Source: an uncultured Pirellulaceae bacterium (GTDB lineage Bacteria; Planctomycetota; Planctomycetia; Pirellulales; Pirellulaceae). From it: DNA of 36,481 nucleotides. The stretch is from NCBI GenBank assembly GCA_938091115.1, contig CALKNI010000207.1, positions 1 to 36,481 of the forward strand. The letters are read 5' to 3'. Shown here one piece after another: positions 33,027 through 34,209 of the stretch (within the stretch, counting starts at the first letter, position 1; the number at the start of each line of letters is the position of its first letter). The notes beneath the pieces are model-generated. The model saw only the letters and a program-made list of their open reading frames with translations. It was not told the DNA's origin and ran no database searches. The translations under genes and the position numbers were made by a program.

Positions 33027-33033
33027 AGAGGGG
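33027..33033 (+). promoter_or_regulatory. Shine-Dalgarno of the thioredoxin-like lipoprotein gene
   Basis: AGAGGGG lies six bases before ATG 33040 and firmly sets that start. Confidence 0.7.
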
Positions 33034-33039
33034 TTCAAA

Positions 33040-34209
33040 ATGAAAAAAGTCCGAATACTGGAAACTTGTGTCGTTTCGATTGCAATTGTTAGCATGGCAG
33101 GTTGTGCTGATCCGGAGCCAGAGGTCGTTAAGACATCGGGTTCCGCGTCAAGTTCTGAACGCGATTCAGCGACTTCTCGTGTACCCGCGATACGAGAGGC
33201 CCGCCCAGAGGTTGTTGAGGACCGAGAATACCGTGATATGGCAGCTGTTGATGGAGAGCGTCCAGTTTCAGCAACCCGCCCTCCAGCGTCTCGTGATTCA
33301 CGCCCGTCCGAGACAAGAGATTCTCGACCCACTGGCCCCGGAATGGGAGTTGGATCTGGTGCCGGAGGTGGCTCGTTACCAGGCATTAGACCGCCCGGTG
33401 GAAATAATGTGTACGATTCTTCGTCTGGAATAGGTATGGCGGTTCGAGACAATGCTTCTCAAAATCCAGGCGCCTCACGAGAGCCGGAAGCCCATCGGCA
33501 GCCCGCACCGCGGGAGTACAAGCTGGAGTTTACATCTGCTACCGGAGCCAAGGGGTTGGAAGTCGGAGATGCGATTCCGGAAGTGAGTGGTAAGGATTTG
33601 GATAACATCAAATTCAAACTCTCAGATTATCAGGGTAAAGTTGTTATGTTGGATTTCTGGGGGGATTGGTGACCGCCCTGCCGTGCGATGTACGGACACG
33701 AGCGGACGCTCGTCAATGAGATGAAAGGACGCCCCTTTGTGTTACTTGGGGTTAACAGTGATAAAGAAAAAACGAGAGCGAAAGATGCAGTCAAAGATAA
33801 TAATTTGAATTGGCGGAGTTGGTGGGATAAGAGTACACAAGGTGACATTTCAACCAGTTTTCAAATACAAGGTTGGCCGACAATATTTTTGATTGACCAC
33901 GAGGGAGTTATACAGGCTAAAAACTTGCGTGGTAGTCAATTAGATATCGCAATTGAACAACTGGTGGCTCGTGCCGAGGGAGATGGGGCCGAGGGAGGCC
34001 CGTTCATTAGTGAGTGGCGTACGTTTGAAGATTCGCAAGGAAAGTTTCAAGTGGAGGCGCGTCTGGTCGGCATGGAGGGTGGAGAGGTCATCCTGCTTAG
34101 AAGATCGGACCAAGTTGAAATTAACGTTCCGCTTTCGAGATTGAGCAAGCGAGATCAGTCATTTTCTCGAACCGAAATTAAACGTTTAAACGCAATGAAT
34201 CGACTATAA
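33040..34209 (+). CDS. Candidate selenocysteine-containing TlpA-like thioredoxin lipoprotein with SHD1 domain (in-frame TGA)
   Basis: The frame is 389 residues if the TGA at 33670-33672 is read through. The N-terminus is a lipoprotein signal with lipobox MAGC (Cys22), followed by about 145 low-complexity residues rich in Arg, Pro, Ser and Gly. The thioredoxin/TlpA-like domain begins near LEVGDAIPEV (about 172) and runs through KVVMLDFWGDW, the TGA as residue 211, then PPCRAMYG with Cys214, LLGVNSD and the cis-proline motif GWPTIFLID (Pro280). A C-terminal SHD1-like domain (about 322-385) contains EWRTFEDSQGKFQVEARLVG and INVPLSRLSKRDQSF. Family members read CPPC at the active site, so the TGA replaces exactly the first cysteine. 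If Sec is inserted, this is a membrane-tethered thiol-disulfide oxidoreductase with a Sec-Pro-Pro-Cys centre. Alternatives are a fresh nonsense mutation or base error, which would leave a 210-residue inactive stub. Confidence 0.8.
33670..33672 (+). other. In-frame TGA at the CxxC position (putative Sec codon)
   Basis: The codons are GAT TGG TGA CCG CCC TGC CGT, that is D-W-(TGA)-P-P-C-R. The nearby galactokinase, the propeller gene and several ABC genes end in TGA, so UGA is a normal stop in this genome. Recoding would therefore have to be local. Confidence 0.7.
33681..33713 (+). promoter_or_regulatory. Candidate bacterial SECIS hairpins after the TGA
   Basis: Two adjacent stem-loops follow the TGA. 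CCGTGC-GAT-GTACGG (33681-33695) has 6 pairs including one G-U, with a 3-base loop starting with G, 14 bases after the TGA. ACGAGC-GGAC-GCTCGT (33698-33713) has 6 perfect pairs and a loop starting GG, 31 bases after the TGA. Bacterial SECIS elements are short hairpins in this position with an apical G. Which one, if either, binds SelB cannot be told by eye. Confidence 0.45.

Follow-up and report, generated by a model that had tools for sequence, protein, structure and literature searches.

A candidate Sec-containing TlpA-like lipoprotein with an SHD1 domain, and its conserved SECIS-like hairpin, in an uncultured Pirellulaceae bacterium

Thiol-disulfide isomerase-like proteins with a selenocysteine (Sec)-containing UxxC active site were predicted in 2005 (PMC1088965), and the same proteins appear under cd02966 in Table 1 of a 2026 review (PMC13188914). 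The Sargasso Sea thiol-disulfide isomerase-like selenoprotein (UxxC, cd02966) resembles the protein described here in carrying Sec in place of the first Cys, in its TlpA-like domain and in being marine (PMC1088965; PMC13188914); it was described from four sequences (reference MGB1650493.1), and is set apart by its description, in which we found no mention of a lipobox, linker and SHD1 domain. WAxxUGC_long (NF041054) and the UGC-containing TlpA selenoprotein are likewise ResA/TlpA-like selenoproteins, although their Sec motif is UGC rather than UPPC. ResA, CcmG, TlpA and StoA share the fold and a CxxC-type active site with the present protein, but use Cys and lack SHD1, and our protein scores far under their family cut-offs. 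Amongst planctomycetes, P1 and P2 possess, as here, Sec machinery and several selenoproteins; the main text there discusses formate dehydrogenase and formylmethanofuran dehydrogenase, and leaves TlpA unmentioned (PMC4807772).

Literature searches of partial coverage, over main texts, found no selenoprotein with an SHD1 domain and no report of a planctomycete or verrucomicrobial Sec-TlpA family; a search for SHD1 with Planctomycetes returned one paper only, on chromo-like domains, and one for Mariniblastus with selenium returned nothing relevant. The novelty claimed in the first-pass annotation of this DNA is accordingly narrowed, in that Sec-containing TlpA-like UxxC proteins had been predicted earlier (PMC1088965; PMC13188914), whilst no description of the SHD1 fusion was found. 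Within the literature searched, the architecture of lipid anchor, linker and SHD1, and a multi-copy family whose SECIS hardly varies, appear undescribed.

The window analysed here, i.e. the whole stretch of 36,481 nucleotides, contains on its forward strand one frame (33040-34209) interrupted by a single in-frame TGA (33670-33672) which, when counted as a residue, yields a product of 389 residues with Sec at position 211 (U211). The genes on both sides lie on the opposite strand, leaving this gene solitary; one relative (L138) has the same mechanosensitive-channel-like gene downstream as is found in the window. The features of the locus are as follows.

33027-33033, forward strand: probable ribosome-binding site AGAGGGG, 6 nt upstream of the ATG (from sequence).
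33040-33105, forward strand: predicted signal peptide with lipobox SMAG-C (from sequence; kept in six full-length orthologues; AlphaFold helix 4-16).
33103-33105, forward strand: Cys22, the probable lipidation site (lipobox judged by eye).
33106-33549, forward strand: long, Ser/Arg/Gly/Pro-rich linker, predicted to be disordered and fast evolving (pLDDT; dN).
33556-33969, forward strand: TlpA/ResA-type thioredoxin domain (Pfam PF00578/PF08534/PF13905; Foldseek).
33670-33672, forward strand: putative Sec codon TGA, giving U211 in the active site U-P-P-C (sequence, alignments, orthologues).
33679-33681, forward strand: codon (TGC) of the resolving Cys214, invariant in the alignment and in 117/117 distinct TGA copies.
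33698-33713, forward strand: candidate apical hairpin of a bacterial SECIS, ACGAGC-GGAC-GCTCGT, with its loop 31 nt past the TGA (conservation, distance, MFE).
33877-33879, forward strand: codon of cis-Pro280 of the thioredoxin fold (GWP-TIFLID), invariant in alignment A1.
34006-34170, forward strand: SHD1 domain (PF03983; E 1.1e-10, 41.6 bits against a cut-off of 23.7).

The first-pass annotation had placed the TGA at the first Cys of a thioredoxin CxxC motif, with GWPTIFLID and an SHD1-like domain further on in the same frame, and both points hold. Translation and alignment with Cys homologues locate the codon within FWGDW-U-PPCR, at the attacking-cysteine position of a TlpA/ResA-type thioredoxin, with the cis-proline of GWPTIFLID following, and Pfam assigns AhpC-TSA/Redoxin to residues 175-297, spanning the TGA, and SHD1 to residues 323-377, with all domains above cut-off. 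SHD1 is also found in one orthologue (L028) and in two relatives (L033, L037). The signal peptide and the lipobox ending in Cys22, conserved in the orthologues, make the product a probable lipoprotein. AlphaFold predicts the thioredoxin domain confidently (pLDDT about 85-95) and the SHD1 region well, with a disordered linker (pLDDT <50 for nearly all of residues 17-169), and the top Foldseek matches are TlpA/ResA-type oxidoreductases (TMt about 0.8-0.88). The thioredoxin fold, (C/U)xxC motif and cis-Pro together place the protein in the TlpA/ResA-like thiol-disulfide oxidoreductase superfamily. No NCBIfam model reached its cut-off with the window protein, including ResA (NF002854, 73 bits against 170), TlpA (NF047696, 47.5 against 230), the ResA-like selenoprotein WAxxUGC_long (NF041054, 25 against 300) and the TUGYCR redoxin selenoprotein (NF053656, 23 against 100).

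At the residue-211 column, which the first-pass annotation had singled out for alignment, close homologues have either TGA or a Cys codon (TGC/TGT), the pairing of TGA with Cys that serves to recognise selenoproteins, and from the sequence the in-frame TGA is almost certainly read as selenocysteine. Seven same-genus genomes contain an orthologue, 80-88% identical and each with the identical single TGA. Among named records, the nearest orthologues lie in MAGs labelled Mariniblastus sp. and Pirellulaceae. Past the TGA these orthologues show neither frameshift nor further stop, the very damage that had been proposed as a check, and dN/dS 3' of the TGA is 0.01-0.08, equally low as in the domain part 5' of it; dN is about 0.1-0.25 in the linker versus 0.02-0.07 in the domains. 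Since the same single TGA recurs in seven orthologues and dN/dS after it is low, the gene is not decaying and the TGA is not a sequencing error. An erroneous conversion of TGC or TGT to TGA concerns one base of a MAG assembly and might on that account be suspected, but the occurrence of the same TGA in seven other same-genus assemblies and in more than 100 homologous copies already refutes it, and its probability is negligible.

Reading the TGA as a true stop would give a 210-residue truncated lipoprotein and a second protein starting at ATG 33688, the gene then being either split in two or a pseudogene, and mechanical calling of open reading frames does return two, 33040-33672 and 33688-34209. 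Termination would, however, sever the thioredoxin domain at its active site in all 117 distinct TGA copies collected from Planctomycetota and Verrucomicrobiota, whilst both halves are under purifying selection in the orthologues and the Cys paralogues run continuously across the residue-211 site; we regard this reading as very improbable. The in-frame TGA recurs in a wider family. The source genome contains four more close homologues, three with TGA (L010, L011, L012) and one with TGT (L009) at the identical codon position, and some relatives' genomes have about six TGA copies. A tree of 79 domains requires five Sec/Cys changes and unites the window orthologues in one supported Sec clade, and a separate scan of genome contigs, which turned up 461 related stretches, added 60 new TGA copies, including some from records labelled Verrucomicrobia, Kiritimatiellia, Limisphaerales and Akkermansiaceae. 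One further homologue, L113 (G046:C90), has two active-site TGA codons (V-U-L-T-U-R) with the same hairpin (see below), a possible UxxU site.

Bacteria in which TGA has been reassigned exist, and the codon might in principle specify Trp, Gly or Cys, through genome-wide reassignment or selenium-free readthrough. Against this, 9/22 window genes terminate in TGA, so that the codon is an ordinary stop in neighbouring genes and the recoding is local, as the first-pass annotation had argued; the alternative residue at the site in homologues is Cys; the genome encodes tRNA-Sec and SelB; and a SECIS-like hairpin goes with the TGA. Such a decoding therefore seems highly unlikely, and Sec remains the preferred reading. 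Of the checks put forward in the first-pass annotation, nearly all that could be computed came out on its side.

Searching the genome for Sec machinery, as had been suggested, gave a result that is complete but for one gene. The tRNA-Sec, with a UCA anticodon (67 bits, over the family cut-off), SelB (364 bits, over cut-off) and SelD (261 bits, over cut-off) are present, whereas the search of the source MAG for selA returned only a weak 44-residue match, judged unrelated. Full-length selA occurs in most same-genus genomes, and in two close relatives (L056, L057) directly follows an HU-type gene; in the source genome the contig with that neighbourhood (C15) stops inside the HU gene, just before the conserved place of selA. 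Because the contig ends there, and the MAG is 88% complete, the absence of selA is best explained by an assembly gap. Three other same-genus MAGs with TGA copies (G002, G003, G004) also gave no full selA match. The selD match (L023, G000:C97) lies within a 740-residue open frame, and SelD may here be fused to another domain.

Downstream of the TGA, and conserved with it, is a hairpin that was absent from the first-pass annotation. Its 6-bp stem (ACGAGC/GCTCGT) closes a loop of 4 nt that lies 31 nt past the TGA, with a calculated energy of -7.9 kcal/mol for the hairpin alone. The window DNA reads CAC GAG CGG ACG CTC GT, with the first C at 33697, 27 nt after the TGA, and most relatives have CAC GAG CGG TCG CTC GT, so that the loop is GGWC over the window and most relatives. 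The bSECIS model specifies an upper stem of 4-16 bp, a loop of 3-9 nt with G in the first two loop positions, a distance of 16-37 nt from the UGA and an MFE <= -7.5 (PMC13188914), and the window hairpin (6 bp, loop GGAC, 31 nt, and -7.9 kcal/mol when folded by itself) falls within each of these limits. Rfam, searched with this region for known SECIS families, gave no credible match. In the window RNA segment the hairpin has an ensemble probability of about 0.29 and an alternative fold competes; the position of the ribosome may affect the balance between them. A second hairpin, close to the UGA, folds more strongly than anything else in the segment (-16.2 kcal/mol); it was considered as the SECIS and rejected, since unlike ACGAGC-GCTCGT it is not conserved in paralogues.

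In the first set of homologues the core GAGC-N4-GCTC is present in 63/64 TGA copies versus 1/17 Cys copies (Fisher p 8e-15, a value that ignores shared ancestry), and the hairpin occurs in 60/60 of the new TGA copies from the separate scan, Verrucomicrobiota included, its distance to the TGA being constant among copies. In three whole genomes, the hairpin matches in TGA genes all have a TGA at -30, and the matches to the pattern outside the family have a TGA at -30 in no case. Across the 117 TGA copies, codons +10 to +12 show no synonymous change and codon +13 shows one. It might be supposed that Sec is inserted but that the invariant CAC GAG CGG TCG CTC codons reflect a constraint on the protein (HERSLV) or codon bias, with no SECIS involved: HERSLV is conserved as protein too, and the segment is an alpha helix beside the active site in the AlphaFold model. 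Nevertheless, the six-codon residues Arg, Ser and Leu are each held in a single codon (114/114, 110/110 and 116/117, respectively) whilst the adjoining Pro, Ala, Val and Leu codons vary, with four or five synonyms in use; the hairpin is lost in Cys paralogues; and base pairing persists in two variants, GAGC-AGTT-GCTC and, through a G-U pair, GGGC-GGTC-GCTC. To protein constraint or codon bias in place of a SECIS we accord a very small probability, and we favour a SECIS function for the hairpin.

Natural variation in the hairpin takes several forms. The loop is GGAC (33704-33707, a Thr codon) in 7/8 window orthologues versus GGTC (Ser) in nearly all paralogues, a possible tuning of SelB affinity. 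Three TGA copies (L092, L094, L096) have the loop AGTT for GGTC with the stem kept, the protein reading HEQLLV for HERSLV, and three more distant TGA homologues (L051, L052, L115), with FWxxxUPPC and HGRSLV, have the hairpin GGGC-GGTC-GCTC, in which a G-U pair replaces A-U. The lone Cys copy with the hairpin core, L089 (G026:C166; TGC, CRPC), is nested in a Sec clade with a complete SECIS hairpin retained; it has probably changed from Sec to Cys recently, which would make its SECIS a fossil.

The sequence itself shows the recoding signal, the order of the domains and the machinery. The locus is very probably explained by a selenoprotein made through SelB, tRNA-Sec and the hairpin, most likely acting as a lipid-anchored Sec thiol oxidoreductase that would be supplied with electrons by DsbD/CcdA and docked through SHD1. 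In this mechanism the hairpin at 33698-33713 would guide SelB and Sec-tRNA-Sec in inserting Sec at the UGA at 33670-33672, and the product, to judge from its lipobox, would be exported as a lipoprotein, with the TlpA/ResA-type thioredoxin domain presumably facing outward on a flexible tether of roughly 150 residues. By analogy with the family, the U211 selenolate would attack oxidised thiols, disulfides among them, in partners outside the cytoplasm; Cys214 would resolve the resulting selenylsulfide. Electrons would probably come from the cytoplasm via the one DsbD/CcdA-type membrane protein (DsbD_TM) in the genome, and SHD1, at the C-terminus, probably serves for docking onto a partner; Sec insertion itself, export, lipidation, substrates, reductant and the role of SHD1 are what we infer.

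More broadly, we think it more probable than not that an extracytoplasmic Sec-TlpA family (W-U-[PG]-P-C-R-A-M-Y), multi-copy and outside the NCBIfam models, is common to Planctomycetota and Verrucomicrobiota. It would have diversified through paralogy and by gaining domains (SHD1 in the present case), with an almost unchanged SECIS hairpin in the coding sequence, and would provide a selenium-dependent thiol redox system of the cell envelope. Annotation of such genes easily goes wrong, giving two fragments or a truncated lipoprotein, and recognition of the family would add several more selenoproteins per marine planctomycete genome. The family presents one nearly fixed 16-nt hairpin over two phyla and many paralogues, and nature supplies variants of it: loops of GGAC or AGTT, a stem with a G-U pair, and a Cys copy in which the hairpin survives. 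The family is thus ready material for testing what SelB recognises; it also offers natural Sec/Cys pairs within a single genome. The finding would tie the envelope redox chemistry of marine planctomycetes to selenium.
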